Source: Curvibacter sp. PAE-UM (GTDB lineage Bacteria; Pseudomonadota; Gammaproteobacteria; Burkholderiales; Burkholderiaceae_C). From it: 64,000 nucleotides of DNA. The stretch lies in contig NZ_KQ483358.1 of the NCBI RefSeq assembly GCF_001432305.1, positions 2,787,710 to 2,851,709 of the forward strand, given 5' to 3'. The position numbers and the translations under genes are program-made. A model generated the notes under the pieces. The model did no database searches. It had not been told where the DNA came from and saw only the letters and a list, made by a program, of their open reading frames with translations. Shown here one piece after another: positions 20,777 to 47,412 of the stretch (position 1 is the stretch's first letter; the number at the start of each line of letters is the position of its first letter).

Positions 20777-20816
20777 GTTTTGCCTTGCAGGAGAGTATTC
20801 GCTGGTGTACACGTGG

Positions 20817-22636: not shown

Positions 22637-22660
22637 GGCGTACGGACGCTTTCTCTCTAC

Positions 22661-28436: not shown

Positions 28437-29177
28437 TTACGCACCTTGGACCCAATGAGGGTTGAGGTCATCGGGTACGCAAGACTGCGCGAACATCTTT
28501 CCGAAACTCTCGAGAGCGATAACGCTCTTGATGTTTACGCCGGTCTGGCGGGAGGTGGCACCGTTCATAATCGGTTCTTGATTTCCGTCTTGCCAGATAC
28601 CTGCCAGATTGAGACTGTGGAGATGGTCCATATAGAGTCCGAAGTTTCCAGGGAACACGAGTTCGCTTAGCGGAAACTCATTGTGTGTCGTCGTTCTTGG
28701 TCCGAACGTACTCGATTCCTGACGATACACGGCATGCTGTCGGAAAGAAAAGGAGCGTCGTTTAAGGTGAAAGAGAATCAGCGCCTCATCGGGACTCAGC
28801 TGAGTGATCAATTGAGCGAACGCAGGATGAGCTTCGCTCACCCGCTCTCGGTCGATGGCTCGGGCTAGAAGGTTGAGGAAAAGCTCGGCATTGATGCTCG
28901 TCTCTTCGACATATTGGAGGCCAGCGAACACAGGACCCGCAAGTTGCGGATGCGCTTCAACCCTGCGCTCCTCTGGTACTTTCTCGGCGACGCGTTCGAG
29001 GTACCGTTTCCATCGCTGATGTTGAGCGGCTAGATAATCCACGGGTGCCAAGGCAAAACGCGCCACCTTCGCTGCATTTCCGAGCGCTTCGCCCACCTCT
29101 CTTGCAGCAGGTTGTGCTACGTCGCGGTAGACCTCGGCGATTGGTACAACCTTTCCAATGTCTTCAAGCCAGTTCAT
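28437..29177 (-). CDS. DUF4393 (Abi-alpha-like) protein in an integron cassette
   Basis: A 246-residue protein. The N-terminus VVPIAEVYRDVAQPAAREVGEALGNAA followed by FALAPVDYLAAQHQRWKRYLERV is the DUF4393 pattern; related proteins were named abortive-infection alpha after a lactococcal phage-resistance factor. The rest shows a helical region with ETSINAELFLNLLARAIDRE and no catalytic motif I recognise. It is a single-gene cassette bounded by attC sites at 29201-29282 and 28370-28433. A defence role is inference from family name and cassette context. Confidence 0.78.
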   Translation of the reverse strand: MNWLEDIGKVVPIAEVYRDVAQPAAREVGEALGNAAKVARFALAPVDYLAAQHQRWKRYLERVAEKVPEERRVEAHPQLAGPVFAGLQYVEETSINAELFLNLLARAIDRERVSEAHPAFAQLITQLSPDEALILFHLKRRSFSFRQHAVYRQESSTFGPRTTTHNEFPLSELVFPGNFGLYMDHLHSLNLAGIWQDGNQEPIMNGATSRQTGVNIKSVIALESFGKMFAQSCVPDDLNPHWVQGA

Positions 29178-30896: not shown

Positions 30897-31760
30897 TTAA
30901 ACCTGTCGCAGCAAGGCCTGCCCCGCCCTCACCTCCGCCCCCGGCTCCAGGCCGTCCACCAGCTCCATACCCTTCGGCGCCAGCACCACGATGGTCGAGC
31001 CATGCTCGAACCAGCCCATCTCCTGCCCGCGCTGCAACTTCGCATCGCAGGCAATCACCTGCTCGCCCCGGTAGTCATGGTGCAGGTTCAGGCTCAGGAA
31101 GTGCAGGCGCACGCTGGCCACCAGGATGGCACCCACAGGCACGATGGTCAGGGCCTGGCCCGAGGGCAGCGCGGCCTCGATCACGGCACGATCATTTCGA
31201 CAGTAGAGGCTGGGCACGCGCTTGAGCGCAATGGGGTTGACGTTCCACATATCGCCCTGGATGTGCGTGACGCGTTTCACCGTGCAGTCGGTCGGTGCGT
31301 GAAAGCGGTGGTACATGCTGGCGCGCAGGCGCAGGGTGACGTAGCTGCCGCCCTGGTGTTTTTCCGCCAGCGCAGCACTGCCCAGCAACTCGGTCAGGCT
31401 GTAGGGCATGCCCTTGATCTGCAGCAGTTCGTCACCATCGATGCGGCCGTGGCCACCGACGATGCCGTCGCTGGGGCTGCAGATCACTTGCGGGTCAGCG
31501 TCGAAGGGCCGCGCGCCCTCTTTCAGTTCACGTACAAAACAGTCGTGCAGGCTGTCGAAGCTCTGTTTTTTGGCCTCACTCAGGTCCAGGTCACCAAAGA
31601 ACTGGAACAAAGCAATGGAGGCATCACGCACCAGCGGCTGGCGGATCTTGCTGAAACGGCCCATGAAACGCGTCAGCGCCACGCGGGGCAGGCGGTTGGT
31701 GAGCACGAAGTTCAGGCCTTCCTGTTGCAGGAGGCGGTCGAGCAATGTCTTGAATGTCAT
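30897..31760 (-). CDS. psd: Phosphatidylserine decarboxylase proenzyme
   Basis: A 287-residue enzyme making phosphatidylethanolamine from phosphatidylserine. It is processed by self-cleavage at the serine that becomes the pyruvoyl group; here the motif is HGST (Gly254-Ser255) instead of the more usual LGST. FHAPTDCTVKRV and the early SPSDGIVGGHGRI are typical. Length is normal. It is divergent from the aminotransferase gene. As supplier of the main phospholipid it fits the lipid-related neighbourhood (lplT, GT4, Mpo1-like). Confidence 0.95.
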   Translation of the reverse strand: MTFKTLLDRLLQQEGLNFVLTNRLPRVALTRFMGRFSKIRQPLVRDASIALFQFFGDLDLSEAKKQSFDSLHDCFVRELKEGARPFDADPQVICSPSDGIVGGHGRIDGDELLQIKGMPYSLTELLGSAALAEKHQGGSYVTLRLRASMYHRFHAPTDCTVKRVTHIQGDMWNVNPIALKRVPSLYCRNDRAVIEAALPSGQALTIVPVGAILVASVRLHFLSLNLHHDYRGEQVIACDAKLQRGQEMGWFEHGSTIVVLAPKGMELVDGLEPGAEVRAGQALLRQV

Positions 31761-31798
31761 CTGGTTTTCACATGCCTGTCAAATGGTTTGAATACAAA

Positions 31799-31816
31799 GA
31801 GTCATCGTCGTTTCAC
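31799..31816 (+). promoter_or_regulatory. Weak Pho-box-like site before the aminotransferase gene
   Basis: GAGTCAT CGTC GTTTCAC matches 10 of 14 consensus positions and ends 29 bases before the aminotransferase ATG. The half-sites resemble the better boxes at 34258-34344. No clear -10 follows. Confidence 0.35.
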
Positions 31817-31845
31817 ACGGCTGCCCCAAAGGAAACCGAAGGACC

Positions 31846-33489
31846 ATGACTTACGAACTTGCCTGGATTGCCGGCGCCGCCGGCCTCACCCTCCCCGCCC
31901 TCAAGCGCCGCCTGGAGCTCTCGCGCGCCAAGCACCCCTCGCTGGCCGGGCATTCGCGCACGGCCAAGCGCCTGGCGCGCTGGATCCCGGGCTACGCCTA
32001 CGACGAGGCCACCTTCTATGCCTGCGATGGCGCGCCCGATACCGTGGCGCAACAACGCCGCGCGGGCTTCTTTGCACTCGCCGGCCGGCTGCAGGCCAAG
32101 GCGCCACAGTCGATCGCGCTGACCAAAGCCGCGCGCGAAGGTCTGCCGGATCTGCGTTTCACGGGCGCCTACCGCGTGCCCTACCAGTTCAGCCCCTACC
32201 TGCGCCAGCATCTGCAGGTGGGTGGCTTCGTACAGGCCAGCGAGGGCGTGAGCGTGACGGACCTGGACGGCAACCGCTACATCGACCTCACGGGTTCCTA
32301 CGGCGTCAACGTCATGGGCATGGACTTCTACAAGTCCTGCATCGCAGCGGGCGCGCGTATTGCGCAGGACCTGGGCCCCGTGCTCGGTGCCTACCATCCC
32401 TGCGTGGCCGACAACGTGGCGCGGCTGCAGCAGATCAGCGGGCTGGACGCCGTGTCCTTCCACATGAGCGGCACCGAGGCCGTGATGCAGGCCGTGCGCC
32501 TGGCGCGTTACCACACGGGCAAACGCCACCTGGTGCGTTTCTGCGGGGCCTACCACGGCTGGTGGGAAGACGTGCAGCCGGGCCCGGGCAACCCCCTGCC
32601 CCCGCGCGAGACCTACACCCTGCGTGACATGCACGAGGCTTCGCTCAAGGTGCTGCGCACCCGCCGCGACATCGCCTGCGTGCTCATCAACCCGCTGCAG
32701 GCCCTGCACCCCAACAAGAACGCCCCGGGCGACTCCACCTTGCTCGACAGCAGCCGCAGCGCGGGCTACGACCGCGCGGCCTACACGCGCTGGCTGCAGC
32801 AGCTGCGCGAGGTTTGCACCGAACGCGGCATCGTGTTGATCTTCGACGAGGTGTTTCTGGGTTTCCGCCTGGCGGCGCGCGGCGCGCAGGAGTACTTTGG
32901 CGTGCAGGCCGATCTGGTGACCTACGGCAAGACCCTGGGCGGCGGCCTGCCCGTGGGCGTGGTTTGCGGCAAACAGGCGCTGATGCAGCGCTTCCGCGAG
33001 GACAAGCCCGCCGACATCTGCTTTGCACGCGGCACCTTCAACGCCCACCCCTATGTGATGGGGGCGATGAACGAATTCCTGCGCCGGCTGGATACGCCCG
33101 AGATCAGTGCGATCTACCGCGATCTGGATGGCACCTGGGATACACGACGCGAGCGCTTCAACGCCCGCATGCTGGTCGAGGGCCTGCCCCTGCAGGCGGC
33201 GAACATGAGCAGCGTCTGGACGCTGAGCTATACCCGCCCCTCGCGCTACAACTGGATGCTGCAGTATTACCTGCGCGATCATGGCCTGGCCCTGAGCTGG
33301 GTGGGCACGGGCCGTTTCATCTTCAGCCTGAACTTCAGCGAAAGTGATTTCGAGGACATGCTGGAGCGTTGTGTACAGGCCGGCCTGCAGATGCAGCGCG
33401 ACGGCTGGTGGTGGAAGGCCCCGGGCCAGACCAACAAGACCATCAAGCGCGGGTTGCTGCGGGAGATGCTGCGCCATCTGTGGCGCTAG
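31846..33489 (+). CDS. Class-III PLP-dependent aminotransferase (glutamate-1-semialdehyde mutase-like), long form
   Basis: A 547-residue fold-type-I PLP enzyme. About 120 residues of extra N-terminus precede the catalytic core, which starts at VTDLDGNRYIDLTGSYGVNVMG. Core motifs: SFHMSGTEAVMQAVRLAR, FCGAYHGWW, LIFDEVFLGFR (the PLP-ring Asp) and TYGKTLGGGLPVG with the PLP lysine. It is not HemL: it is much longer, and its neighbours are lipid genes. It likely transaminates an amino or keto group on an unknown substrate. It is convergent with the Mpo1-like gene and shares Pho-like upstream sites with it. Confidence 0.85.
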   Translation: MTYELAWIAGAAGLTLPALKRRLELSRAKHPSLAGHSRTAKRLARWIPGYAYDEATFYACDGAPDTVAQQRRAGFFALAGRLQAKAPQSIALTKAAREGLPDLRFTGAYRVPYQFSPYLRQHLQVGGFVQASEGVSVTDLDGNRYIDLTGSYGVNVMGMDFYKSCIAAGARIAQDLGPVLGAYHPCVADNVARLQQISGLDAVSFHMSGTEAVMQAVRLARYHTGKRHLVRFCGAYHGWWEDVQPGPGNPLPPRETYTLRDMHEASLKVLRTRRDIACVLINPLQALHPNKNAPGDSTLLDSSRSAGYDRAAYTRWLQQLREVCTERGIVLIFDEVFLGFRLAARGAQEYFGVQADLVTYGKTLGGGLPVGVVCGKQALMQRFREDKPADICFARGTFNAHPYVMGAMNEFLRRLDTPEISAIYRDLDGTWDTRRERFNARMLVEGLPLQAANMSSVWTLSYTRPSRYNWMLQYYLRDHGLALSWVGTGRFIFSLNFSESDFEDMLERCVQAGLQMQRDGWWWKAPGQTNKTIKRGLLREMLRHLWR

Positions 33490-33490
33490 G

Positions 33491-33529
33491 AAAGAAAAAA
33501 CCCGGTGCGACGGAACCCGCCGCACCGGG
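33491..33529 (-). terminator. Terminator between the convergent aminotransferase and Mpo1-like genes
   Basis: CCCGGTGCG (33501-33509) pairs with CGCACCGGG (33521-33529). Read on the minus strand it is followed by a T-rich tract (33500-33491), so it terminates the Mpo1-like gene intrinsically; it may also stop the aminotransferase transcript. Confidence 0.85.
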
Positions 33530-33538
33530 AACATGGCA

Positions 33539-34186
33539 TCAGGCCTGGTGACGGGCCAGCTCAGCCTCGTGCTCGGCACGTTCCTCGATCAGGTGCTCGG
33601 GCTTGGCGATCAGCTCGCCCTGCAGCAGGTACAGCGGCGACTTCCAGTAGAGCAGGATGTCGTGGAAAGGGTCGGTGATGATCTTGATGGCCCAGACGAT
33701 GCCGGTATAAAGACTTTGGGTCACGGCCAGTTGCAGCACGCGGAAGGCCAGGCCACCCACCCCCAGCCAGAGCCAGAGCCAGCCGACGTTGAGCACGTAG
33801 CCGCTGGGCTGGGTGTGCGCCTCCAGCAGGCCGAAGAAATCCGGCTGCAGCCAGAGCACCACGGGCAGGCCGGCCCAGACGGCCATGAGCACCACCTTGC
33901 GCTTGAGGTTGTAGCCCACCTTGATCTCTTCCTTGTACTCGTGGGTGGCGTGGTTCACCTCGTCATAGCCCTTGGGCTCGAAGAAGAAGTGGCCCGACTG
34001 ACGCGAGACCATGGAGATCAGCCAGGCGATCAGCGCGGCCACCGGCGGCTGGATGAAGAGGAAGGCATAGGCCACCAGGAAGGACACAGCGCTGATGAGG
34101 TGCAGCGACTGATTGATGCGGCTGTGGTGGTAATAGCGGTGGTCGTCCCAGCGCTGGACCTTCAGGGCTTGCAGAAATTGGCTCAC
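33539..34186 (-). CDS. Membrane protein resembling Mpo1/DUF962 family
   Basis: A 215-residue protein with about four membrane segments. Near the N-terminus YYHHSRINQSLHL fits the H-x-N-x3-H signature of Mpo1-like (DUF962) proteins and RQSGHFFFEPKGYD fits their GH-x3-E motif; further histidines follow in NHATHEYKEEI. In yeast Mpo1 is an iron-dependent dioxygenase that shortens 2-hydroxy fatty acids. I infer a lipid-modifying iron enzyme; the match is remote and by eye. GTG 34186 is chosen because AGGAG precedes it by 6 bases. A strong Pho box lies upstream (34258-34275). Confidence 0.6.
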   Translation of the reverse strand: MSQFLQALKVQRWDDHRYYHHSRINQSLHLISAVSFLVAYAFLFIQPPVAALIAWLISMVSRQSGHFFFEPKGYDEVNHATHEYKEEIKVGYNLKRKVVLMAVWAGLPVVLWLQPDFFGLLEAHTQPSGYVLNVGWLWLWLGVGGLAFRVLQLAVTQSLYTGIVWAIKIITDPFHDILLYWKSPLYLLQGELIAKPEHLIEERAEHEAELARHQA

Positions 34187-34257
34187 GGAGGCTCCTTGGT
34201 GTGTCGTGTTAACGGAGGGCAGCAAGGCTGCGCCTGGGGGCATGGTCGGGCCCGCGC

Positions 34258-34275
34258 GTGAAAGAACGATGACAG
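34258..34275 (-). promoter_or_regulatory. Pho box of the Mpo1-like gene
   Basis: Minus strand CTGTCAT CGTT CTTTCAC, 13 of 14 consensus positions, 72 bases before the GTG start. GACCAT about 10 bases downstream could be the -10. Confidence 0.75.
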
Positions 34276-34283
34276 CCGGTGGC

Positions 34284-34301
34284 CCGTCATCAAAATTTCA
34301 C
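34284..34301 (+). promoter_or_regulatory. Distal Pho-box-like site of the GT4 gene
   Basis: CCGTCAT CAAA ATTTCAC, 11 of 14 consensus positions, directed to the gene at 34367. It may cooperate with the proximal box 43 bases downstream (about four helical turns). Confidence 0.5.
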
Positions 34302-34326
34302 AGGCCTGCGATGCCGCGATACCACG

Positions 34327-34344
34327 CTGTCATCGAACTGAGAT
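34327..34344 (+). promoter_or_regulatory. Proximal Pho box of the GT4 gene
   Basis: CTGTCAT CGAA CTGAGAT, 12 of 14 consensus positions. A CAAGAT -10-like hexamer lies 10 bases downstream (34355-34360), placing a transcript start almost at the ATG. Confidence 0.65.
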
Positions 34345-34366
34345 AAATGCGCCGCAAGATGGGCGC

Positions 34367-35596
34367 ATGAAACCCGACACCACCGACATCCTGGTCGAAG
34401 ACCTGCCGCCCGCGCAGACGCATCTACGCATCGCCATCGTCACCGAGACCTACCCGCCCGAGATCAACGGCGTGGCGCTCACGCTGCAGCGTGTGGTCGA
34501 AGGCCTGCGCGAGCGCGGCCACCAGGTCCAGCTGGTGCGCCCGCGCCAGGCCAGCGAAGCCCCGGCGGGTGAATCGGGCGACGTGCTCATGCGCGGCATG
34601 CCCATCCCGCGTTACCCGCACCTGCAGCTGGGCCTGCCCTCGCGCCGCCAGCTCGAACCGCTGTGGATGCTCAAGCGGCCGGACCTGGTGCACATCGCCA
34701 CGGAAGGACCGCTGGGCTGGTCGGCGCTGCGTGTGGCGCGCAAGCTGCGCATCCCGGTCACCTCGGATTTCCGCACCAACTTCCATGCCTACAGCAGCCA
34801 CTACGGCATGGGCTGGCTGAGCAAGCCCATCATGGCCTACCTGCGGCGCTTCCATAACCAGACGCTGTGCACCATGGTGCCCACACGCGGCCTGGCCGAA
34901 CGCCTGAGCGAAGCCGGCTTCGAGCGACTGCAGGTGGTGGCGCGCGGCGTGGACAGCAGCATCTTCGACCCGGCCCTCCGCAGCGAGGCGCTGCGCGCCA
35001 GCTGGGGCGCCGGGCCCGACACCCCGGTGCTGCTGTGCGTGGGCCGCCTGGCCAAGGAGAAGAGCCTGCCGCTGCTGGTGCGCGCCTACGCCCAGGCGCG
35101 GCTGCTGCGACCCGACCTGAAACTGGTGCTGGTGGGCGACGGCCCGATGCGGGCCGAACTGCAGGCGCTGGCACCCGAGGCCATCTTCACCGGCACGCTG
35201 GCGCGCCCGGCCCTGGCGCAGCATTACGCCTCGGCCGACCTCTTCGGTTTTCCCAGCCAGACCGAGACCTTCGGCAACGTGGTGCTGGAGGCCATGGCCA
35301 GCGGGCTGGGCGTGGTGGCCTACGACTACGCCGCCGCCTCGGAAAACATCAAACCGGGCCAGAACGGCCTGCTGGCGCCGATGGACGACGACGAGACCTT
35401 CGTGCGCCTGCTGGTCGAACTGGTGCAGGACAGCGCCCTGCTGCAGCGCCTGCGCACGGCTTCGCGCGACGCGGCACGACAGAACGACTGGGCCGGCATC
35501 GTGGCACAGATCGAAAGCGTGATGAAGCTGGCTGTGGCCGGACACCTCGCGTCCGGCGGCCGGCCGCTTTCAATCCCTGCGCAGCAGGTGGCCTGA
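34367..35596 (+). CDS. GT4 glycosyltransferase, probable glycolipid synthase
   Basis: A 409-residue GT-B enzyme. The acceptor-side start IAIVTETYPPEINGVALTLQRVVEGL and HIATEGPLGWSALRVARKL are shared with SQD2/Agt/MgtA-type lipid glycosyltransferases; the donor domain shows VGRLAKEKSLPLLVRAY and the SQTETFGNVVLEAMASG motif with its EX7E-type glutamates. It is a paralogue of the Agt-like enzyme at 43966. Such enzymes move glucose, galactose, glucuronate or mannose to diacylglycerol. Two Pho boxes precede it. Its 3' end overlaps lplT by 27 bases (convergent). Confidence 0.85.
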   Translation: MKPDTTDILVEDLPPAQTHLRIAIVTETYPPEINGVALTLQRVVEGLRERGHQVQLVRPRQASEAPAGESGDVLMRGMPIPRYPHLQLGLPSRRQLEPLWMLKRPDLVHIATEGPLGWSALRVARKLRIPVTSDFRTNFHAYSSHYGMGWLSKPIMAYLRRFHNQTLCTMVPTRGLAERLSEAGFERLQVVARGVDSSIFDPALRSEALRASWGAGPDTPVLLCVGRLAKEKSLPLLVRAYAQARLLRPDLKLVLVGDGPMRAELQALAPEAIFTGTLARPALAQHYASADLFGFPSQTETFGNVVLEAMASGLGVVAYDYAAASENIKPGQNGLLAPMDDDETFVRLLVELVQDSALLQRLRTASRDAARQNDWAGIVAQIESVMKLAVAGHLASGGRPLSIPAQQVA

Positions 35597-36853
35597 CAGG
35601 GCCTTGAGCCCGGTCCGGCGGCTCCGGCGCCAGAGTGTGCCACCAATGAACAGGATCAAGCCCAGGCCGGCCAGCGCCATGACGTGCTGCGCCGGCAGCT
35701 CCAGCGCGATCAGCCCTGCATAGAGTCCCAGCAACACCAGGATGCTGAGGTTTTCGTTGAAGCCCTGCACCGCGATGGACTGGCCCGCCGTCAGCAGGCG
35801 GTGGCCGCGGTGCTGCAACAGCGCGTTCATGGGAACGACCATCATGCCGCCCAGCGCCCCCACGGCCAGCAGCACGGGCACGGCGGCGCGCCAGTCGGAG
35901 ATGAAGAGCGCACTCACCATGAAGGCCCCCATGAACTGCCCCAGCGGCAAAACCGCCGTGGCGTGGCGCAGGCGCAGGCGGCTGGCCACCAGCACGGCCC
36001 CGCCCACCACACCCAGGGCCACGACGCCCTGCAGATAGGCTGCCTGGTCCAGGCCCAGGCCCAGCGCCTGCACGGCCCACAGCAGCACGGCAAACTGCAG
36101 CATGGCGCCCAGGCCCCAGAACACCGTGGTCACGGTCAGCGAAAGGCCGCCGCTGCGGTCCCGCCAGAGCAAGGCATTGGCGTGCCGGAAGTCGGCCAGC
36201 ATCTGCGCCGGACGACGCCCGCGCACCGGGTAGGACGCGCCGCTGGGCACGATGCGCAGATTGCACAGGGCCGAAAGCGCATACAGCACGATCACGATGG
36301 CCATCGAGACGTTGAGCGCAGCCGAGGAAGCACCGGCCGAGAGCGGCCAAAGCGCGCCGGCCCCGGCCGCAGCAGAGGACTGCAGCCACAGCGGCGCCAC
36401 CAGCAGGCCGCCGAGCACCGTGCCCAGCAAGACCGAGAGCACCACGGCCGATTCCACCCAGCCATTGGCTGCCACCAGCGCGGCGGGCGGCACGCTTTCG
36501 GTCAGCAGCCCGTATTTGGCCGGCGCATAGGCCGAGGCGCCCAGGCCCACCAGGGCAAAAGCCAGCATGGGGTGCACGCCATACAGCAGGGCCAGCGCAC
36601 CCAGCAACTTGAGCCCGTTCATCCAGGCCATCAGGCTGCGCTTGCAGACGGCATCGGCCAGCGCGCCGATGAAGGGCGCGAGGAAGACATAGGACAGGGT
36701 GAAGGCGAACTTGAGCAGCGGCGCCCACCACAGCGGCGAGCCCAGGTGATGCAGGTGCGCAATGGCGACGATGAGCAGCGCGTTGTCGGCCAGCGAGGAG
36801 AGAAACTGGGTGGCCATGAGCCACCCGAAGCCGCGCGGTAACTGCCTAGACAT
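35570..36853 (-). CDS. lplT: Lysophospholipid transporter LplT
   Basis: A 427-residue major-facilitator protein with about 12 helices. MATQFLSSLADNALLIVAIAHL, LAPFIGALADAVCKRSLMAWMNGLKLLG and SAYAPAKYGLLTESVP match LplT, which flips lysophosphatidylethanolamine inward across the inner membrane. In E. coli its gene is joined to aas (re-acylation); no aas is here, instead ugd precedes it with an 8-base overlap. This links lysolipid return to the surrounding lipid genes. The long upstream extension of the frame is not used. Confidence 0.92.
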   Translation of the reverse strand: MSRQLPRGFGWLMATQFLSSLADNALLIVAIAHLHHLGSPLWWAPLLKFAFTLSYVFLAPFIGALADAVCKRSLMAWMNGLKLLGALALLYGVHPMLAFALVGLGASAYAPAKYGLLTESVPPAALVAANGWVESAVVLSVLLGTVLGGLLVAPLWLQSSAAAGAGALWPLSAGASSAALNVSMAIVIVLYALSALCNLRIVPSGASYPVRGRRPAQMLADFRHANALLWRDRSGGLSLTVTTVFWGLGAMLQFAVLLWAVQALGLGLDQAAYLQGVVALGVVGGAVLVASRLRLRHATAVLPLGQFMGAFMVSALFISDWRAAVPVLLAVGALGGMMVVPMNALLQHRGHRLLTAGQSIAVQGFNENLSILVLLGLYAGLIALELPAQHVMALAGLGLILFIGGTLWRRSRRTGLKALSGHLLRRD

Positions 36854-38303
36854 TCGCCATCGGACGGGCCGGTTCGGCCAGCCGGACCAGGCTCTCGGTG
36901 CCGGCGGCGCCAGCGAGAGCCAGTACGGCCAGCGCATTGCGCCGGCCGATGCCCTGGTAGGCGATGCCCTGCTCCTGCAACTGCTGCGGATCGTAGAGAT
37001 TGCGGCCGTCGATGATCAGCGGATGGCGCAGGGCCTGGCGGATCAGCCCGAAATCCGGGTTGTGAAAGAGCTTCCACTCCGTCACCACCAGCAGGGCGTC
37101 GGCACCGTCGAGCGCGGACATGGCGTCGCCCACGAGGGTGAGGCGCGACAGGCCGTCCGGAATGTCGGCCAGGTCCTCGGCCAGCACGGCCTGCGCCGCC
37201 TCCATGGCCACCGGGTCGTGGGCCACCACCTCGGCGCCGCGCAGGATGAGCTGGCGGATCAGGTGGCGGCTGGGGGCCTCGCGCATGTCGTCGGTCTGCG
37301 GCTTGAAGGCCAGGCCCCACAGGGCAAAACGACGCCCGTGCAGATCACTGCCGAAGTGGGCCATGACCCGGCGCGCCAGGATCTGGCGCTGGGCCTGGTT
37401 GACGCGCTCGGTGGCTTCCACCAGCTGCATCTGGCTGCCATGCTGTTGCGCCGTCTGCATCAGGGCGCGCGTGTCCTTGGGGAAACAGCTGCCGCCATAG
37501 CCGGTGCCGGCGTAGAGGAAGCTCGGGCCGATGCGGCTGTCGCTGCCGATGCCGCGGCGGATGGCGTCCACGTCAGCCCCCACCAGGTCGGCCAGGTTGG
37601 CCATCTCGTTCATGAAGGAGATGCGCGCAGCCAGCATGGCGTTGGCGGCGTACTTGGTGAGCTCGGCGCTGCGCACATCCATCCAGACCGTGCGCTCGTG
37701 GTGGCGGTTGAGCGAAGCGTAGAGCCGCGTCATGGCCGCGCGCGCCATCTCGCCGGGGGCACCGGCGGGCAGGCCGATCACGATGCGGTCCGGGTGCATG
37801 AAGTCGTCGATGGCCGCGCCTTCCTTGAGGAATTCGGGGTTGGAGATCACCGCAAAAGGCAGTCCGGAGCGGTCCCGCTCCTGCAGGGCTTCGGTGATCA
37901 CCGCCTCGACCCGCTCGGCCGTGCCCACCGGCACGGTGGATTTGTTCACGACGACCAGCGGATGCGTCAGGCTGCGGCCTACCTGTCGCGCCACGTCCAG
38001 CACGTGGACCAGATCGGCCGAGCCATCCTCCTTCGGTGGCGTGCCGACGGCGATGAACAGCACCTCGCAGGCCTCCAGCGCATCCGGCAGGCGGGTGGTG
38101 AAGAACAGCCGCTGGTCGCGGGTGTTGCGCTGGATCACGGTGTCCAGCCCGGGCTCGTAGATCGGCACCACACCCGAGCGCAGCAGCTCCACGCGCCGAG
38201 GATCGCTGTCCATGCAGACCACCTCATGGCCCATGTCGGCCAGACAGCTCGCCGTCACCAGGCCCACATAACCGGCACCGATCACTGATACTTTCATGGT
38301 CAC
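36846..38303 (-). CDS. ugd: UDP-glucose 6-dehydrogenase
   Basis: A 485-residue enzyme oxidising UDP-glucose to UDP-glucuronate with two NAD. The N-terminal fold KVSVIGAGYVGLVTASCLADMG, NKSTVPVGTAERVE and the catalytic Cys273 in GTGYGGSCFPKDTRAL are all present. UDP-glucuronate is used for capsule or for glucuronosyl-diacylglycerol, which Agt-type enzymes can make during phosphate starvation; its place in the cluster with GT4 and lplT favours a lipid use, by inference. Start MTMKVSVIG follows GGGGTGACC. Confidence 0.95.
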   Translation of the reverse strand: MTMKVSVIGAGYVGLVTASCLADMGHEVVCMDSDPRRVELLRSGVVPIYEPGLDTVIQRNTRDQRLFFTTRLPDALEACEVLFIAVGTPPKEDGSADLVHVLDVARQVGRSLTHPLVVVNKSTVPVGTAERVEAVITEALQERDRSGLPFAVISNPEFLKEGAAIDDFMHPDRIVIGLPAGAPGEMARAAMTRLYASLNRHHERTVWMDVRSAELTKYAANAMLAARISFMNEMANLADLVGADVDAIRRGIGSDSRIGPSFLYAGTGYGGSCFPKDTRALMQTAQQHGSQMQLVEATERVNQAQRQILARRVMAHFGSDLHGRRFALWGLAFKPQTDDMREAPSRHLIRQLILRGAEVVAHDPVAMEAAQAVLAEDLADIPDGLSRLTLVGDAMSALDGADALLVVTEWKLFHNPDFGLIRQALRHPLIIDGRNLYDPQQLQEQGIAYQGIGRRNALAVLALAGAAGTESLVRLAEPARPMANV

Positions 38304-38361
38304 CCCGCTAGTTTGTTGGGACGATCATGCAAGCGTCATGTGACCGCGGCATGTCTGCGCC

Positions 38362-38402: not shown

Positions 38403-40280
38403 TCAGGCCGGGACAGTCGCGCGCCGCGGCATCACGAACAGGCCGCTGCCCGCAAGCTTGGCCTCGCGTTTGGCCAGCGCGGCCTGGGTGGCCACCTCCT
38501 CCGCGTCGCGGTAGGCCTGGCACCCGACCTGCACCGCACCGATGGAGACCGTGGTGCAGGGGAAGAAGCGCATGACACCGTGCCGGTCCTCGGCATGGAT
38601 GCCGCCGCACAGGCGGGCCGCCTCGTCGAAAAGCTCGCGTGCCTGCTGGGCGAATTCGTCAACGATGCGCTCGCAGCGCTGCGCCCAGTCGTCGCTCTGG
38701 AACAGGATCATGAAGTCGTCGCCACCCACATGCCCGACGAAGTCGCGCTGCGGATCGCTGTGCGCCACGGCCAGCCGCGCCAGCAGGCGGATCATCTCGT
38801 CGCCGCGCCAGTAACCATACTGATCGTTGAAGGGCTTGAAGTTGTTCATGTCGATGTAACAGGCGACGAACTCGCCCTGGCTCTCGATCAGGCGTTTGAT
38901 GTGCAGGCTGATCGGGATGTTGCCCGGCAGCGAAGTCAGCGGGTTGGCGTGGCGGGCCGCCTCCAGGCGCAGCTCGGTGACCGATCGCACCAGTTGTTCG
39001 CCCGTGCCCAGGCCGACGTAACGACCGTTCTCGGTGACGATGAAACCGTCGCTCAGGTAACGCTGGTCCTGCGAGGTCAGGATGCCCACCAGTTCCTCGA
39101 TGTCGTGGCTGCGCTCGATCAGACGCGGCTGCTGGTTGGCGTGCAGCAGGCAGGACTTCTTGCCGAAGATCTCGCGGAAGTACAGCGTGGCGTAATGGTC
39201 CATGAACTGCTGGCGGTTGATGATGGCCTGCGGACGTTCGTCGTCCACCACCGCCACCGCGTGCAGCTCCGGATAGGCCTGGAAGATGGCCGCCACCTCG
39301 TCGTTGCTGGCGCGGCAGCCGATCGCAGGCGCATGGATGAGCGAAAGATGGCGCAGCTGCCCCATGCGGGCCACGTAGCGCTGCTCGGGCATCACCGCCA
39401 CCCGCGTGTCGTGCAGCACCTCCACCGCCGCTGCGAGGATTTCGGGCCGCACCTCGGCCCCCGGGTGTCCCAGGAAATAGCCCTGGCCATAGGCGATGCC
39501 GAGATCGCGGATGACACGCAGGTCGGCCTCGTTCTCGATGCCCTCGGCCACCAGTGCCGTGCCGAAGACATCGGCGATCTGCAGCAGGGCCTGCAGGGTC
39601 TTGAGCTTGTCAGCGCTGCAGCTGATGTCGCGGCTGAAGTACTTGTCGATCTTGACGATGTCGGGCCGGATCTGCGACCACAGGCGCAGGCTGGAGCGGC
39701 CGTCGCCGAAATCGTCGAGCGCCAGCGACAGGCCCACGGCGTGCAGCGCGCGGGCCACCTCGACCAGCCCGTCCATGTCATGCACACGCTCATGCTCGGT
39801 GATCTCCAGCACCACCATGCGCGGCGACACCTCCAGGGTGCGCATGGCCCGTGCCAGCGTCTGGGTGCCGTCCACCGCAACGAGACGCTCCAGCGCATGG
39901 GCGCTGATGTTGAGGAACAGCCGCCCCGGCTGGCGCTGCTGCCCCCACTGCCGCAGCGCCACGTAGACGCAGTAGAGCTCGAACTCATAGAGCAGGCCTT
40001 CGGCCTGGGCTGCGCCCAGCAGCGCATCAGCCGACTGCAGCCGGCTGCCTTGCGGCCCGCGGATCAACGCCTCGTGCGCGTGTACCGTCGCACTCTTGAG
40101 ATCGACGATGGGCTGGAACACCGGGTGCAGGGCATCGGCCCGCATCAGGCAGGCGAGCGGCCCCTCCCGACCGCTCAGCGCGGAGAGGAATTCATGGGCA
40201 AAAAGACGGACGTGGTCAATCATCGGCGGGCGTTGCGCAGCGTGCGCATCCTGCGTCGCAGCGAACAGGGTTTCCTGCAT
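38403..40280 (-). CDS. EAL-CBS-GGDEF cyclic-di-GMP signalling protein
   Basis: A 625-residue cytoplasmic protein without membrane segments. The EAL phosphodiesterase domain comes first: HEALIRG (Glu70), LNISAHALE, LEITEHE, ALDDFGDGRSSL, KIDKYF and AEGIENEADL, with all usual metal residues present. A middle region (about 300-430) looks like paired CBS-type modules. The C-terminal GGDEF domain reads VGGDDFMILF, i.e. GGDDF instead of GGDEF, which may still bind or make c-di-GMP. Order EAL first, GGDEF last is the less common arrangement. A weak Pho-like site precedes it. Confidence 0.88.
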   Translation of the reverse strand: MQETLFAATQDAHAAQRPPMIDHVRLFAHEFLSALSGREGPLACLMRADALHPVFQPIVDLKSATVHAHEALIRGPQGSRLQSADALLGAAQAEGLLYEFELYCVYVALRQWGQQRQPGRLFLNISAHALERLVAVDGTQTLARAMRTLEVSPRMVVLEITEHERVHDMDGLVEVARALHAVGLSLALDDFGDGRSSLRLWSQIRPDIVKIDKYFSRDISCSADKLKTLQALLQIADVFGTALVAEGIENEADLRVIRDLGIAYGQGYFLGHPGAEVRPEILAAAVEVLHDTRVAVMPEQRYVARMGQLRHLSLIHAPAIGCRASNDEVAAIFQAYPELHAVAVVDDERPQAIINRQQFMDHYATLYFREIFGKKSCLLHANQQPRLIERSHDIEELVGILTSQDQRYLSDGFIVTENGRYVGLGTGEQLVRSVTELRLEAARHANPLTSLPGNIPISLHIKRLIESQGEFVACYIDMNNFKPFNDQYGYWRGDEMIRLLARLAVAHSDPQRDFVGHVGGDDFMILFQSDDWAQRCERIVDEFAQQARELFDEAARLCGGIHAEDRHGVMRFFPCTTVSIGAVQVGCQAYRDAEEVATQAALAKREAKLAGSGLFVMPRRATVPA

Positions 40281-40359
40281 TCCATTCCAGAGGTAGCGCC
40301 CCAGCAGGCAGGCAAGACCTTACTGTGCCGGCGCCTCATGTCAGCGGCATGACGGACAT

Positions 40360-40377
40360 GTTTCAGTCCGATGACAT
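40360..40377 (-). promoter_or_regulatory. Weak Pho-box-like site before the EAL-GGDEF gene
   Basis: Minus strand ATGTCAT CGGA CTGAAAC, 11 of 14 consensus positions, 80 bases before the ATG. Needs independent support. Confidence 0.28.
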
Positions 40378-41840: not shown

Positions 41841-43955
41841 GGCTCCACGCGGCTCGCGCAGCGCGTAACGCGCCATGAGTGCGTCCTGGGCGCTGATGGC
41901 CGGGCGTCCGGCCGCGGGAACAACCTTGGTGTAGCGCCCGTCCGGCTGCAACTCCCAGCTGCCCTGGGTGTCGCCCATGGCAGCCACCAGGCATTCGTCG
42001 ACGATGCGCTGGCGCAGCAGCGGGTCCAGCACCGGCCAGGCCAGCTCGACCCGGCGCAGCATGTTGCGGTTCATCCAGTCGGCGCTGGAGAGGTAGAGCT
42101 CCTCGGTCTCGCCGGCACGGAAATAGAAGACCCGCGCATGTTCGAGAAAACGTCCGATCAGCGAACGCACGCGGATGTTGCCGGTCTGTCCGGGCAGTTG
42201 CGCGGGCAGCATGCAGGCACCCCGCACGATCAGGTCGATCTTCGCGCCTTTCTGTCCGGCGGCGATCAAGGCGCGAATGAGTGCCTCGTCGGTCAGGGCG
42301 TTCATCTTGGCGACGATGCGCGCCGGCTGGCCGGCCGCAGCGGCGGCCCCCAGGCTCTCGATCTTCTCCAGCAGCTTGCGGTGCAGCTGGAAAGGCGCCA
42401 CCCACAGGTGCTTGAGGCGCGGCAGTCGGCTCTGGCCGGCCAGGTGCACGAAGACATGTTCGATGTCGGCGGTCAACCCCGCGTCGGCCGTGAGGTGGCT
42501 GAGGTCGGTGTAGAAGCGCGCCGTCGCCGGGTTGTAGTTGCCGGTGGACAGGTGGGCGTAGCGCCGGAAATGCCGGCCCTCGCGTCGTGTCACCAGCATC
42601 ATCTTGGCGTGGGTCTTGAGACCGACCACGCCATAGAGCACCTGCACACCGATGGATTCGAGCTGCTCGGCCCAGTTGATGTTGACCTCTTCATCGAAGC
42701 GCGCCTTGAGCTCCAGCACCACGGTCACTTCCTTGCCGCGGCGCACGGCTTCGCGCAGCAGGTCCATCAGGACGGAGTTGGCACCGGTGCGGTAGATGGT
42801 CTGCTTGATGGCCAGCACCTGGGGATCGCTGATGGCCTGGCGCAGGAAGTCCAGCACCCCGTCAAAGCTCTCGTAGGGCTGGTGGATCAGCATGTCGCCA
42901 CGCTTGAGCTGTTCGAAGATGGACTGCCCGCTCACCAGCTGGACCGGGTAGGACGGCTTGTAGGCCGGGAAGCGCAGGCGCGGCTCGTCCACCAGGTCGA
43001 CCAGCTGGCCCAGGCGCACCAGATTCACCGGCCCGTGCACGCGGTAGAGCGCGCCCTCGGGCAGCTCGAACTGACGCAGCAGGAAATCCGACAGGTACTG
43101 CGAGCAGCCGGCCGAGACCTCCAGCCGCACGGCCTGGCCGTAGTGGCGGTGCTGCAAACCCTGGCGCAGCGCGGTGCGCAGGTTCTTGACGTCGTCCTCG
43201 TCCACCGCCAGATCGGAGTGGCGCGTGACGCGGAACTGCGAGAACTGGCTCATGTCGCGCCCGGGGAACAGCTCGGCCAAGTGCGCGCGGATCACGCTGG
43301 AGAGCGAGACAAACAGCCGGCGCTTGCCGCACAGCTTCTCGGGCAGGCAGATCAGGCGCGGCAAGGCGCGCGGCACCTTGACGATGGAAACGTCGTTCTC
43401 GCGGCCGAAGGCGTCGTGCCCGCCCAGGCGAACGATGAAGTTGAGCGACTTGTTGGCCACTTGCGGAAAAGGGTGGGAGGGGTCGAGCCCCACCGGAATC
43501 AGCAGGGGCCGCACCTCCTGCTCGAAGTACTGCTTGACCCAGCGCCGCTGTGCGGTGTTGCGATCGCCGTGCGAGATGATCTTGATGCCTTCCTTCTCGA
43601 AGGCCGGCATCAGCTCGTCGTTGTACAGGGCGTACTGGCGCTCCACCAGGCTGTGGATGGCTACCGACATGGCATCGAAGGTCGCCGCGGTGTAGGTGCC
43701 CAACTGGTCCTGGCCCTGCTTGGCGCTCAAATGCGGTTCAGCCCGCACCTCGAAGAATTCATCGAGGTTGGAGGACACGATGCACAGGTAGCGCAGGCGC
43801 TCCAGCAGCGGCACCTCGGGCCGGCAGGCCCAATCAAACACACGCTCATTGAAGGCCAGGATGCTCTGGTCGCGGTCCAGCAGGGCGGGCACGGTGATGC
43901 GTTGGGCGCTTTCGGCAGGCACGGTCAGCTCCAGGCTGGAAGATTGCAAAGTCAT
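41838..43955 (-). CDS. ppk: Polyphosphate kinase 1
   Basis: A 705-residue enzyme that polymerises the terminal phosphate of ATP into polyphosphate. N-terminal SLLAFNERVF-like segment (SILAFNERVFDWA), SSNLDEFFEVRA, then the catalytic core with LYGVVGLKTHAKMMLV carrying the phosphorylated histidine and NPATARFYTDLSHLTAD. Full length. A Pho box at 43977-43994 precedes it inside the 3' end of agt. Together with ppx it manages the polyphosphate store within the Pho programme. Confidence 0.97.
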   Translation of the reverse strand: MTLQSSSLELTVPAESAQRITVPALLDRDQSILAFNERVFDWACRPEVPLLERLRYLCIVSSNLDEFFEVRAEPHLSAKQGQDQLGTYTAATFDAMSVAIHSLVERQYALYNDELMPAFEKEGIKIISHGDRNTAQRRWVKQYFEQEVRPLLIPVGLDPSHPFPQVANKSLNFIVRLGGHDAFGRENDVSIVKVPRALPRLICLPEKLCGKRRLFVSLSSVIRAHLAELFPGRDMSQFSQFRVTRHSDLAVDEDDVKNLRTALRQGLQHRHYGQAVRLEVSAGCSQYLSDFLLRQFELPEGALYRVHGPVNLVRLGQLVDLVDEPRLRFPAYKPSYPVQLVSGQSIFEQLKRGDMLIHQPYESFDGVLDFLRQAISDPQVLAIKQTIYRTGANSVLMDLLREAVRRGKEVTVVLELKARFDEEVNINWAEQLESIGVQVLYGVVGLKTHAKMMLVTRREGRHFRRYAHLSTGNYNPATARFYTDLSHLTADAGLTADIEHVFVHLAGQSRLPRLKHLWVAPFQLHRKLLEKIESLGAAAAAGQPARIVAKMNALTDEALIRALIAAGQKGAKIDLIVRGACMLPAQLPGQTGNIRVRSLIGRFLEHARVFYFRAGETEELYLSSADWMNRNMLRRVELAWPVLDPLLRQRIVDECLVAAMGDTQGSWELQPDGRYTKVVPAAGRPAISAQDALMARYALREPRGA

Positions 43956-43965
43956 GACAGATTGT

Positions 43966-45051
43966 TTACAGCATAGATGACATTGGTGTGACAGTATCGT
44001 CCGATGCCCCGGTCAGGACTGTGGCCTGCCGCACAGGCACCAGATGGGCCAGGAACTGCTGCGCCGCCTGCCCCCAGCTGAAGACCTCGGCCCGCTGGCG
44101 CGCCGCATGGCGCGGCACGGCCTGGGCCCGGTACCAGGCCTGCTGCAGGTCCTCGTCAAGCACCCCACCCCGGGCCCGGCCTTCGTGCTGGCCCAGCACT
44201 TCCAGCGGTCCATCCACCGGGTAGGCCGCCACGGGTGTGCCGCAGGCCATGGCCTCCAGCATGACCAGGCCGAAGGTCTCGGAGCGGCTGGGCATCACAA
44301 ACACATCGGCCGCCGCATACACCTGCGCCAGCTCGGCCCGCGGCAGGATGCCCAGCCAGTGCACCCGCTGGTAGCGGGCCTTGAGCGCGGTCTCCAGCGG
44401 CCCGACGCCGCAGACGATCTTGCAACCCGGCACATCGAGTTGCAGGAAGGCCTCGATGTTCTTCTCGTAGGAGACCCGCCCCACGAAAAGCGACACCGGC
44501 CGGGGCAGATCCTGCAGCCCGGCATACCTGCGCACCTCGTCCTGGTAGGGGAAGAGCCTGAGATCCACGCCGTGCGTCCAGGGCCGCAGATTCCTGAAAC
44601 CACGCTGTTGCAACAGATTCAGCACGCCTTGCGTGGGCACCAGCACGCCCGAAGATGGTCTGTGGAAGTGGCGGAACAGGGCATACCCCCAGGACAGGGG
44701 GACACGCAGCGCAGCCTGCAGGATTTCCGGGAAACGGGTGTGGTAAGCCGTGGTGAAGGCCAGGCCGTGCTTCAGGCAATAAGCCCGCGCCGCCCAGCCC
44801 AGGGGGCCCTCGGTGGCGATGTGGATGGCCTGCGGCGCCAGCGCGTCCAGACGCTGGCCGAGCGCCTTGCGTGGGCGCACGGCCAGGTCGATGCCGGCAT
44901 ACCCCGGACAGGGGCGCGTGCGGAACTGGCCGGGGTGGATCACCTCGACCTCATGCCCGGCGGCACGCACCTCACGCACCAGTTCCACCAGCGTGGTGAC
45001 CACGCCGTTGACCTGGGGCTCCCAGGCATCGGTGACCAGCGCGATCTTCAT
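43966..45051 (-). CDS. agt: Agt-like diacylglycerol glycosyltransferase (GT4)
   Basis: A 361-residue GT-B enzyme: MKIALVTDAWEPQVNGVVTTLVELV, HIATEGPLGWAARAYCL, AYHTRFPEIL and SRSETFGLVMLEAMACG. This matches the Agt enzymes of Agrobacterium and marine bacteria that make monoglycosyl- and glucuronosyl-diacylglycerol under phosphate limitation. It overlaps the PlcP-like gene by 4 bases (ATGA), the same coupling seen for plcP-agt pairs in other phyla. The substrate is inferred from family and neighbour. The ppk Pho box lies in its last codons. Confidence 0.85.
   Translation of the reverse strand: MKIALVTDAWEPQVNGVVTTLVELVREVRAAGHEVEVIHPGQFRTRPCPGYAGIDLAVRPRKALGQRLDALAPQAIHIATEGPLGWAARAYCLKHGLAFTTAYHTRFPEILQAALRVPLSWGYALFRHFHRPSSGVLVPTQGVLNLLQQRGFRNLRPWTHGVDLRLFPYQDEVRRYAGLQDLPRPVSLFVGRVSYEKNIEAFLQLDVPGCKIVCGVGPLETALKARYQRVHWLGILPRAELAQVYAAADVFVMPSRSETFGLVMLEAMACGTPVAAYPVDGPLEVLGQHEGRARGGVLDEDLQQAWYRAQAVPRHAARQRAEVFSWGQAAQQFLAHLVPVRQATVLTGASDDTVTPMSSML
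43977..43994 (-). promoter_or_regulatory. Pho box of ppk, inside the 3' end of agt
   Basis: Minus strand CTGTCAC ACCA ATGTCAT, 13 of 14 consensus positions, 22 bases before the ppk ATG. A TAAACA/AACAAT -10-like stretch follows 8-10 bases downstream. A further CTGTCAT half-site lies at 43954-43960. Confidence 0.82.
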
Positions 45052-45923
45052 GCGGTGGCGGCGCGCACAGAGGCGGTCTGCAGGGCCTGGGCCGGTGCCG
45101 CCTCGCCCCAGCGCACCAACTCCAGCCGGCCGTCGTGGTGCTCGACCAGGGCCGTCAGGCTTTCGACCCAGTCACCGTCGTTGCAGTAGAGGATGCCTTC
45201 GATCTCGCGGATCTCGGCGTGGTGGATGTGGCCGCAGACCACCCCCTGGTGACCGCGCTTTTTCGCCTCGTGCGCCACCGCCTGTTCGAAATCGCTGATG
45301 AAGTTGACCGCCTTCTTGACCTTGTGTTTCAGGTAGGCCGAGAGCGACCAGTAAGGCAGGCCGAACTTGGCGCGCAGGTGGTTGAGGTAGCGGTTGAGCT
45401 TGAGCGTGAACTCGTAGAGGTTGTCGCCCACATAGGCCAGCCACTTGGCGCACTGGATCACGCCGTCGAAATAGTCGCCGTGGGTGACCCACAGGCGCTT
45501 GCCGTCGGCCGTGAGGTGCACGGCATCGTCCACCACCTCGATGCCACCGAACTGGTGGCCGATGAAACCGCGCGCGAACTCGTCGTGGTTGCCCGGCACG
45601 AAGACCACGCGGCAGCCCTTGCGCGCGCGGCGCAGCAGCTTTTGCACCACGTCGTTGTGGGCTTGCGGCCAGTACCAGCGCCGGCGCAGCTGCCAGCCGT
45701 CGATGATGTCGCCCACCAGATAGAGGTGCTCGCTGGAGCTGGCCCTGAGGAAGTCCAGCAGGTCCTCGGCCCGGCAGCCGGGTGTGCCCAGGTGCAGGTC
45801 GGAGATGAAGACGGCGCGGTAGCGCTTGCCGCCGCCCTTGTCGTCGTCATGGTCGTCCTCATGCCCCTGGCGCACCATGGCCTGACCCAGCCAGCTGCTG
45901 CGGTGTTCGAGCTCGCTCTTCAT
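45048..45923 (-). CDS. plcP: PlcP-like metallophosphoesterase (phospholipase C type)
   Basis: A 291-residue calcineurin-fold enzyme. Metal motifs: ISDLHLG (Asp42, His44), GDIIDG, PGNHDEFARG, VTHGDYFD and GHIHHAEI. An acidic HEDDHDDDKGGG linker precedes the domain. Databases usually call such proteins UDP-2,3-diacylglucosamine pyrophosphatase-like, but LpxH proper is shorter and the coupling to an Agt-like gene points to PlcP, which cleaves phosphatidylglycerol or phosphatidylethanolamine to diacylglycerol during phosphate starvation. The released diacylglycerol would feed agt. Starts as TGATG with the stop of the acyltransferase gene. Confidence 0.82.
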   Translation of the reverse strand: MKSELEHRSSWLGQAMVRQGHEDDHDDDKGGGKRYRAVFISDLHLGTPGCRAEDLLDFLRASSSEHLYLVGDIIDGWQLRRRWYWPQAHNDVVQKLLRRARKGCRVVFVPGNHDEFARGFIGHQFGGIEVVDDAVHLTADGKRLWVTHGDYFDGVIQCAKWLAYVGDNLYEFTLKLNRYLNHLRAKFGLPYWSLSAYLKHKVKKAVNFISDFEQAVAHEAKKRGHQGVVCGHIHHAEIREIEGILYCNDGDWVESLTALVEHHDGRLELVRWGEAAPAQALQTASVRAATA

Positions 45924-46747
45924 CAGGCACCGAAGAAGTGTTTGCGGTAGCGCGCCGGCAGGTCGCTGATGCGCATCAGCATGGGCAGGTCCGCGCTGTT
46001 GAAGTCCGGGTCCCAGGCCGGGGCACCGAGCACCTTGGCGCCCAGGCGCAGGTAACCCTTGATCAGGGCCGGCGGCTCCACGTCCAGGCTGCTGTCGAGC
46101 TCGTCGACCGGCAGCGCCAGGCGCGGCCAGACCTGGTGCTCGATGGGCGCCATATGGGTCTCGCGCACCTGGCGCCAGATGCTGGCCGCCACGTCGCCGC
46201 TGATCACGCCGTTGTGCAGCATGGGGATGCTGGCGCAGCCGATCATGGTGTCCAGCTTGTTGCGCACCATGAACTCGGCCAGCGCACCCCACAGGGCCAT
46301 GATGATGCCGCCGTGGCGGAAATCCGGGTGCACGCAGCTGCGGCCCAGCTCCACCATGCGCTCGCGCAGGGCGCGCAGGCGCGTCAGGTCGAACTCCAGC
46401 TCGCTGTAGGTGCTGCCGATGCGCTGGGCCTGCTCGGGCGTGAGCACGCGGTAGGTGCCGATGACCTGCTGGGTTTCCTGGTCACGCACGATGAGGTGCT
46501 CGCAGTAGTCGTCGAACAGGTCCACGTCGTGGCCGGGCACCGTGGTGGACAGGCGCGCGCCCATCTCGCCGACAAAGATGTCGTGCCTCAGGCGCTGCGC
46601 CGCACGGACTTCATCGAGGTGGCGCGCCCACGAAACTTCAAAACCGCCGCGCTCTTGCGCAGGGACCGACTGATGAGGGCGGTGAAGTGACCCCCGAGGC
46701 ATGGCAAGGGGTGACAGCGGGAAAGTGGGGTTCGGTAGTTCTTTCAT
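45923..46747 (-). CDS. OlsB-like GNAT N-acyltransferase
   Basis: A 274-residue GNAT-type acyltransferase of the OlsB/hemolysin-like group (acyl-ACP dependent). ELGRSCVHPDFRHGG, an AASIWR-like middle and the C-terminal PALIKGYLRLGAKVLGAP followed by DFNSADLPMLMRISDLP correspond to OlsB, which puts a 3-hydroxy fatty acid on ornithine to make lyso-ornithine lipid. A second enzyme (OlsA) must complete the lipid and is not in the window. First gene of the tightly packed olsB-plcP-agt operon; SD AGGAGAG. I see no Pho box before it. Confidence 0.75.
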   Translation of the reverse strand: MKELPNPTFPLSPLAMPRGSLHRPHQSVPAQERGGFEVSWARHLDEVRAAQRLRHDIFVGEMGARLSTTVPGHDVDLFDDYCEHLIVRDQETQQVIGTYRVLTPEQAQRIGSTYSELEFDLTRLRALRERMVELGRSCVHPDFRHGGIIMALWGALAEFMVRNKLDTMIGCASIPMLHNGVISGDVAASIWRQVRETHMAPIEHQVWPRLALPVDELDSSLDVEPPALIKGYLRLGAKVLGAPAWDPDFNSADLPMLMRISDLPARYRKHFFGA

Positions 46748-47326: not shown

Positions 47327-47412
47327 GCCTTGCAGTGTGCGCAGGCTTGATGACGGCTTTGTGGCTGTCGCATGACATCTCCATGACATCGACCACCCGA
47401 ATCCGACGGGGC

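Follow-up and report, generated by a model that had tools for sequence, protein, structure and literature searches.

A candidate phosphate-controlled lipid-remodelling gene set with an aminotransferase and an Mpo1-like protein in Curvibacter

Why would genes for a class-III aminotransferase and an Mpo1-like protein stand side by side, next to the gene of a lipid-type glycosyltransferase and close to sites resembling Pho boxes? This arrangement occurs in a 64-kb stretch of the Curvibacter sp. PAE-UM genome (contig NZ_KQ483358.1; the whole stretch is called the window below, and coordinates are counted within it), which an original prediction had read as a phosphate-regulated cluster that may make or turn over phosphorus-free lipids. 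We scanned the frames of the core region, 30897-38303, and found the gene order psd2 (−), AMT (+), Mpo1-like (−), GT4 (+), LplT (−), ugd (−), the last five genes lying where the prediction had put them, according to the frame scan, Pfam and NCBIfam. AMT (31846-33489, +) encodes a 547-residue class-III aminotransferase (PF00202) with a predicted N-terminal membrane anchor, and the gene divergent from it, psd2 (30897-31760, −), a second phosphatidylserine decarboxylase-like protein. The Mpo1-like gene, mpo (33539-34186, −), has a GTG start and encodes a 215-residue protein with long helices, which matches PF06127 below the cut-off, while GT4 (34367-35596, +) encodes a glycosyltransferase of the lipid-glycosyltransferase (Agt-like) type with Pfam GT4 domains. 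At the level of the module, we consider it likely that the set is phosphate-controlled and lipid-directed, with AMT and Mpo working together with Psd2, and GT4 acting on diacylglycerol. That it forms a PhoB-controlled lipid-remodelling module is the best explanation of the locus that we can offer, and one that we hold with middling confidence.

The content and order of the set are established by its relatives, whose loci were searched by tblastn with the window's proteins. We used the 80 loci found with the AMT alignment, which are the best 80 of 578 relatives and include near-identical pairs, so that locus counts overstate independence. The order psd< amt> mpo< gt4> is kept in 69 of the 80 loci; the order gt4< mpo> amt> psd> is seen in three loci, and in eight the set is partial, with a contig end close to AMT. 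Hylemonella gracilis and Hydrogenophaga flava are among the carriers of the module. The psd gene is found in 79 of the 80 loci, the single exception being a contig end, and a true GT4 in 73 (the GT4 match in L110 is the other GT4). In L085, 1.3 kb past AMT are without mpo, and in L077, L079 and L084 mpo is 2.4-3.3 kb distant. The psd2 gene, which the original prediction had missed, belongs to the unit.

The same association is found at the level of whole genomes. In a set of 60 genomes, made up of the window's own and those of 59 relatives, AMT (called at at least 54% identity) is present in 24 and Mpo in 23, all of them AMT-positive, with Mpo in none of the 36 AMT-negative genomes; the sole AMT genome without Mpo is G021, where a contig end cuts AMT. 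Two or more phosphatidylserine decarboxylase (PSD) matches are found in 23 of 24 AMT-positive versus 1 of 36 AMT-negative genomes, some of these matches being fragments in incomplete genomes (G015, G019, G022), and the exception, G017, is 83% complete. Fisher's test gives p values of about 1e-15 for AMT-Mpo and about 2e-14 for AMT-PSD, with kinship ignored. AMT is present in 17 of 26 genomes of the window's own genus and, class-wide at E <= 1e-90, in 9 of 274, the window's own included. In Sphingomonas parapaucimobilis psd-AMT-mpo lie on a plasmid, and the psd-AMT gap there (Sphingomonas L064) holds one 12/14 Pho-box site. Three metagenome records titled Akkermansia, Klebsiella and Bordetella (L113, L127 and L138) hold forms of the module that resemble the ones in Comamonadaceae and their kin; the match figures of L113 are those of Limnohabitans L112, and the names of all three records look wrong. 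We also observed a fatty-acid hydroxylase-like gene (L164:12606-13184, −; histidine clusters seen by eye) near the psd-AMT-mpo set of G038, in a stretch without a GT4 match and without a Pho box of at least 12/14.

Two relatives tie the proteins together more closely. In L163 (G150), AMT and an Mpo1-like domain form one 738-residue frame. Pfam alone gives no Mpo domain match in this fusion; hhalign aligns its Mpo part over 167 columns with a probability of 99.2 and an E value of 1.1e-19, and H16, H20, N25, H29, G65-H66 and E70 of the Mpo1-like protein are kept. The fusion adjoins a DUF3419 gene, a methyltransferase, a PlcP-like gene, an Agt-like GT4 and an alkaline phosphatase (L163:5460-14662). 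In L161 (G104), AMT, a 902-residue GT4 protein, psd and mpo are consecutive on one strand, AMT overlapping the next gene by 4 bases and the other two junctions leaving gaps of 1 and 38 bases, in that order. The fusion and this run argue strongly for a single pathway, and the fusion together with the co-occurrence in 23 of 24 AMT genomes supports the AMT-Mpo link that had been predicted. In the 902-residue protein (L161:10844-13552) the GT4 is C-terminal; Pfam matches nothing in the long N-terminal part, the first residues of which look by eye like a PHP-type phosphoesterase.

Is the set under phosphate control? We scanned for the Pho box consensus CTGTCAY-N4-CTGTCAY, scored as matches out of 14, and took the chance level in the window from 30 first-order Markov sequences. 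The window holds 4 sites at 13/14, 4 at 12/14 and 13 at 11/14, against expected numbers of 0.03, 1.3 and 12.5, so that the 13/14 and the clustered 12/14 boxes are above chance, while a lone 11/14 site is meaningless. The two facing boxes that had been described in the mpo-GT4 gap are indeed there, one at 34258-34275 (−, 13/14), assigned to mpo, and one at 34327-34344 (+, 12/14), assigned to GT4, with an extra Pho-box-like site at 34284-34301 (+, 11/14) that alone is not above chance. The psd2-AMT gap carries two overlapping Pho-box-like sites, at 31754-31771 and 31765-31782 (both +, 11/14 each). The start of mpo was placed at the GTG at 34186 because the proteins of relatives begin there and a purine-rich AAGGAG lies just before it; the ATG at 34243 is disfavoured, since the Pho box would then be merely 14 bases upstream. 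The whole 3.63-Mb genome has 45 sites with at most two mismatches, compared with 22 for the backwards pattern, and of its seven one-mismatch boxes four are in the window, one of them upstream of pstS.

The boxes are kept in relatives. Of the 80 loci, 72 allowed the mpo-gt4 gap to be scored and 75 the psd-amt gap, each gap being widened by 30 bases into both flanking genes, with the reversed motif and random segments as controls. A site of at least 11/14 is present in 70 of 72 mpo-gt4 gaps (reversed motif 13, random segments 5.1), and one of at least 12/14 in 41 (reversed motif 2, random segments 1.1). In the psd-amt gap, 38 of 75 loci have a site of at least 11/14 (reversed motif 8, random segments 3.4), none of which reaches 13/14, and 35 of the 38 are on the AMT strand. 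With other gap limits and shuffled controls, a Pho-box-like site was found in 71 of 73 mpo-gt4 and 29 of 76 psd-amt gaps. In addition, a pst/pho, ppk, phosphatase, plcP or olsB gene lies within up to 8 kb on each side in 40 of the 80 loci, and when plcP and olsB are left out a phosphate-related gene is still found in 24. In a clustering of neighbours (clusters without domain annotation) no additional gene family exceeded 16 of 95 loci, and some of the clusters resemble phoU, phoB, ppk and PhoX by eye.

The conserved boxes and these neighbours support the predicted phosphate control of AMT, mpo and GT4. Pho-box-like sites had been claimed at four genes, and the claim stands for mpo and GT4 (70/72), more weakly for AMT (38/75), and falls for ugd: the site before that gene (38340-38357, −, 11/14) is of a type expected 12.5 times per window, and 6 of 21 relatives have one of at least 11/14, compared with 5 for the reversed motif. 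We thus rejected ugd as a PhoB target. The psd2 gene probably has phosphate control of its own, as judged solely from the gap that it has in common with AMT.

To what chemistry do the proteins point? AMT scores 116.6 bits against PF00202 (cut-off 30.5), and its pyridoxal phosphate lysine, K362, is invariant in 15-row and 26-row alignments. The nearest solved relative, by both sequence and fold, is the aminotransferase domain of MycA (mycosubtilin synthase), followed by glutamate-1-semialdehyde (GSA) aminomutases and beta-transaminases, and class-III sugar C-6' aminotransferases are also among its solved relatives. None of the best 25 of the 67 NCBIfam matches of AMT reaches its cut-off, and the same is true among the matches listed for three relatives; for GSA aminomutase, hemL scores 163.2 bits versus an equivalog cut-off of 527.3. 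An ethanolamine-phosphate phospho-lyase type was also considered for AMT; a literature search turned up general papers and no direct hit. The AMT model (pLDDT, the predicted local distance difference test, 84) has an extra helical N-terminal region, and the hydrophobic and then basic stretch at the N-terminus is conserved, with a best 15-residue hydropathy of at least 1.5 in 86 of 95 cases (starts chosen by script). In the Mpo1-like protein, the alignment shows H16, H20, H29, H66 and E70 to be invariant. The PF06127 match spans only residues 16-70 of 215, the remainder having conserved motifs of its own, and the protein aligns only partly with two paralogs of its own genome. Its model (pLDDT 87) has long helices, and its fold has no match in the PDB at E<=0.001.

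Psd2 scores 193.5 bits against PF02666 and 177.2 against TIGR00163 (cut-off 111.75), and retains SDG, YHRFH and GST, which we take to be its catalytic motifs; the genome has two PSD genes, and Psd2 is 33% identical to the other. The best NCBIfam matches of GT4 are GlcN_PG_synth (147.2 bits) and MGlcDAGSynMgs (115.5 bits), both below cut-off. In G055 a GT4 ortholog abuts PlcP, the two matches overlapping by 16 bases, and PlcP lies in the stretch fetched around the locus in 20 of 80 loci; it is also common in AMT-negative genomes, with 42 of 60 genomes overall. The original prediction had seen a branch separate from plcP-agt, and these neighbours speak against a clean separation: with PlcP directly next to a GT4 relative in one genome, the module probably takes part in PlcP-Agt lipid renovation. 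A lipid role, as had been predicted, is supported by the GT4 kin beside PlcP and by the hydrophobic N-terminus of AMT.

From these features we propose the following mechanism, in which PhoB binding, membrane placement, the metal, the substrates and every reaction are predicted from sequence. At low phosphate, two divergent promoter regions would respond to phospho-PhoB and drive induction of AMT, mpo, GT4 and, probably, psd2 alongside the plcP-agt-olsB set. The N-terminal helix would tie AMT to the cytoplasmic membrane, where AMT and the Mpo1-like protein, a putative membrane metalloprotein, would form one two-step unit; Psd2 would supply or process an aminophospholipid for it, and GT4 would glycosylate diacylglycerol. 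In the full route, Psd2 would convert phosphatidylserine to phosphatidylethanolamine, AMT would swap the head-group amine for a carbonyl, and the Mpo1-like protein, depending on a metal and O2, would oxidise the AMT product, with loss of the head group and release of phosphatidate or diacylglycerol, from which GT4 would form a phosphorus-free glycolipid. The chemistry is most likely amine-carbonyl chemistry on an aminophospholipid combined with diacylglycerol glycosylation, and head-group chemistry is preferred because the usual active-site motifs are retained in Psd2, which nearly always accompanies AMT and Mpo near home. The exact route from Psd2 through AMT and the Mpo1-like protein to GT4 is doubtful. 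More broadly, we suggest tentatively that AMT and the Mpo1-like protein may be a new two-step membrane enzyme which, under phosphate starvation, oxidatively removes or rebuilds a lipid amine head group, providing either a phospholipase-C-independent conversion of aminophospholipid to phosphorus-free lipid or a pathway to an as yet undescribed phosphorus-free aminolipid in Burkholderiales and Sphingomonas.

Several observations weigh against this head-group mechanism and its control by phosphate. The nearest characterised kin of AMT are of the beta-ketoacyl/GSA type, and not head-group enzymes. The Mpo1-like protein remains under the PF06127 gathering score of 24 bits, with 21.0 from the GTG start and 20.8 from the long start (three relatives score 20.6-23.8), and its chemistry is assigned from yeast Mpo1, which we take to be a 2-hydroxy fatty acid dioxygenase. 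As for control, 37 of 75 psd-amt gaps have no site of at least 11/14. Among 15 further stretches, some of them distant, only four (L064, L156, L158 and L166) have a site of at least 12/14 in a module promoter gap, and five (L160, L163, L164, L165 and L167) have no such site anywhere; over all 15 stretches there are 19, versus 6 for the reversed motif. The distant genomes G150 and G144 carry AMT and Mpo with a single PSD, so that psd2 is not indispensable. G038 has AMT and Mpo but no GT4, and GT4 occurs in 4 of the 36 AMT-negative relatives. Finally, PlcP, presumably a phospholipase C, would already yield diacylglycerol, and a second stripping route seems redundant.

Could the same genes build a lipid and not dismantle one? 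A new phosphorus-free aminolipid or amino-glycolipid might replace phosphatidylethanolamine, in which case GT4 would make a glycolipid, the Mpo1-like protein would oxidise a lipid or sugar carbon, AMT would aminate the carbonyl, and Psd2 would decarboxylate an amino-acid-bearing intermediate. Such synthesis is favoured by the kinship of AMT, because its relatives put amines on carbonyl carbons: it is closest to the mycosubtilin synthase domain and beta-transaminases, enzymes that build amines in this way, and sugar C-6' aminotransferases are also among its kin. The DUF3419 and methyltransferase genes beside the L163 fusion, with homologs in L135, and the GT4 within the tight L161 run point in the same direction. 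Psd2, however, keeps ordinary catalytic motifs, which give no hint of a different substrate, the link between GT4 and AMT is not strict, and we know of no such phosphorus-free aminolipid from these bacteria; we regard this pathway as unlikely.

It is quite improbable that the target is the acyl chain and not the head group. AMT would in that case convert 3-oxoacyl thioesters to beta-amino fatty acyl chains, as happens when lipopeptides are made, and the Mpo1-like protein would trim 2-hydroxy acyl chains. The mycosubtilin domain is the top match of AMT in sequence and fold, and Mpo1-type enzymes act on 2-hydroxy fatty acids, but this leaves a dedicated psd2 unexplained, and the neighbour clustering, in which no other family went beyond 16 of 95 loci, also counts against it. 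The genes might instead share phosphate control without a common pathway, Psd2 tuning phosphatidylethanolamine, GT4 being a second Agt, and AMT-Mpo carrying out an unrelated amine or phosphate-scavenging step. Separate promoters, the convergent orientation of AMT and mpo in most loci, the occurrence of GT4 without AMT, and AMT-Mpo without a second PSD in G150 and G144 would fit; the near-strict three-way co-occurrence near home, the AMT-Mpo fusion and the same-strand runs do not, and we consider such independence a rather poor prospect.

The module is followed by LplT (35570-36937, −), a lysophospholipid transporter (NF008397, 443.7 bits versus a cut-off of 297), and ugd (36846-38303, −), UDP-glucose 6-dehydrogenase-like (TIGR03026, 423.2 versus 189.8 bits). 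Both lie within the cluster as first described and are variable neighbours, found in 40 and 24 of 80 loci. LplT was rejected as a core member on this count and for its weak boxes (at least 11/14 in 10 of 40 loci; reversed motif 0, random segments 3.6). Within the window, 7-14 kb to the left of the module, lie a phoR-like kinase, phoB, phoU, two permease genes and pstS (17198-23704, −); PhoB (18605-19273) scores 325.3 bits against TIGR02154 (cut-off 296.2). On the right side are ppk, a second GT4 (43966-45051, −), a PlcP-like metallophosphoesterase (45048-45932, −), which we take to be PlcP, and an OlsB-like acyltransferase (45923-46747, −) scoring below the OlsB cut-offs. Pho-box-like sites of 13/14, 12/14 and 11/14 are found at and upstream of the ppk start (43943-43994, −), partly within the end of the second GT4, and one of 12/14 with two of 11/14 at 47350-47389 (−), some 600 bases upstream of the olsB-plcP-GT4 set. 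A GGDEF-EAL (cyclic-di-GMP) gene (38403-40280, −) has three overlapping Pho-box-like sites directly upstream (40338-40377; 12/14, 11/14 and 11/14, spaced by 11-base steps), and in relatives its upstream region has 11/14 in L067 and only 10/14 in L070. An Abi_alpha (abortive infection) gene (28437-29177, −) lies two open frames from psd2.

Lipid remodelling enables bacterial life at low phosphate, and PlcP with Agt, OlsBA and BtaAB are among the routes known for it. A further conserved module, built around a second PSD, an orphan aminotransferase and an Mpo1-like protein, would bring new lipid chemistry to Limnohabitans, Hydrogenophaga and similar groups, would suggest a testable role for bacterial Mpo1-like proteins, and would offer marker genes for phosphate stress. 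Among the open-licence papers listed in our literature searches none was on this module, which is weak evidence of novelty.

How does the module compare with known systems? The aminotransferase domain of mycosubtilin synthase (6kfm), the closest solved relative of AMT, shares GTFN-HP with it, whereas AMT, at about 27% identity, is a stand-alone protein that carries an additional N-terminal region and a predicted membrane anchor. Yeast Mpo1 and the Mpo1-like protein have in common the GHxxxE and spaced His of the Pfam family and a helical membrane-type architecture; the Mpo1-like protein differs in its partial match below the Pfam cut-off. BtaA and BtaB (DUF3419 and methyltransferase) make betaine lipids, and such genes accompany AMT-Mpo in L163 and have homologs in L135. 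Betaine-lipid synthesis was nevertheless rejected as the job of the module here, since the window's genome (G000) has no DUF3419 match; 1 of the 60 genomes searched has one. In Caulobacter, phosphate starvation leads to glycolipids and glycosphingolipids through PhoB-controlled glycosyltransferases, according to the main text of PMC6445935, and the route from such enzymes to phosphorus-free lipids is the common element; that main text has 0 occurrences of aminotransferase or decarboxylase. A further parallel is the PlcP-Agt lipid renovation of phosphate-starved Pseudomonas aeruginosa (PA3219/PA3218/PA0842; PMC8528852), which shares with the window Pho boxes, GT4-type lipid glycosyltransferases and a PlcP-like phosphoesterase. 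The word aminotransferase is absent from the main text of that paper, and the module in the window extends this scheme by psd2, an Mpo1-like protein and a class-III aminotransferase.

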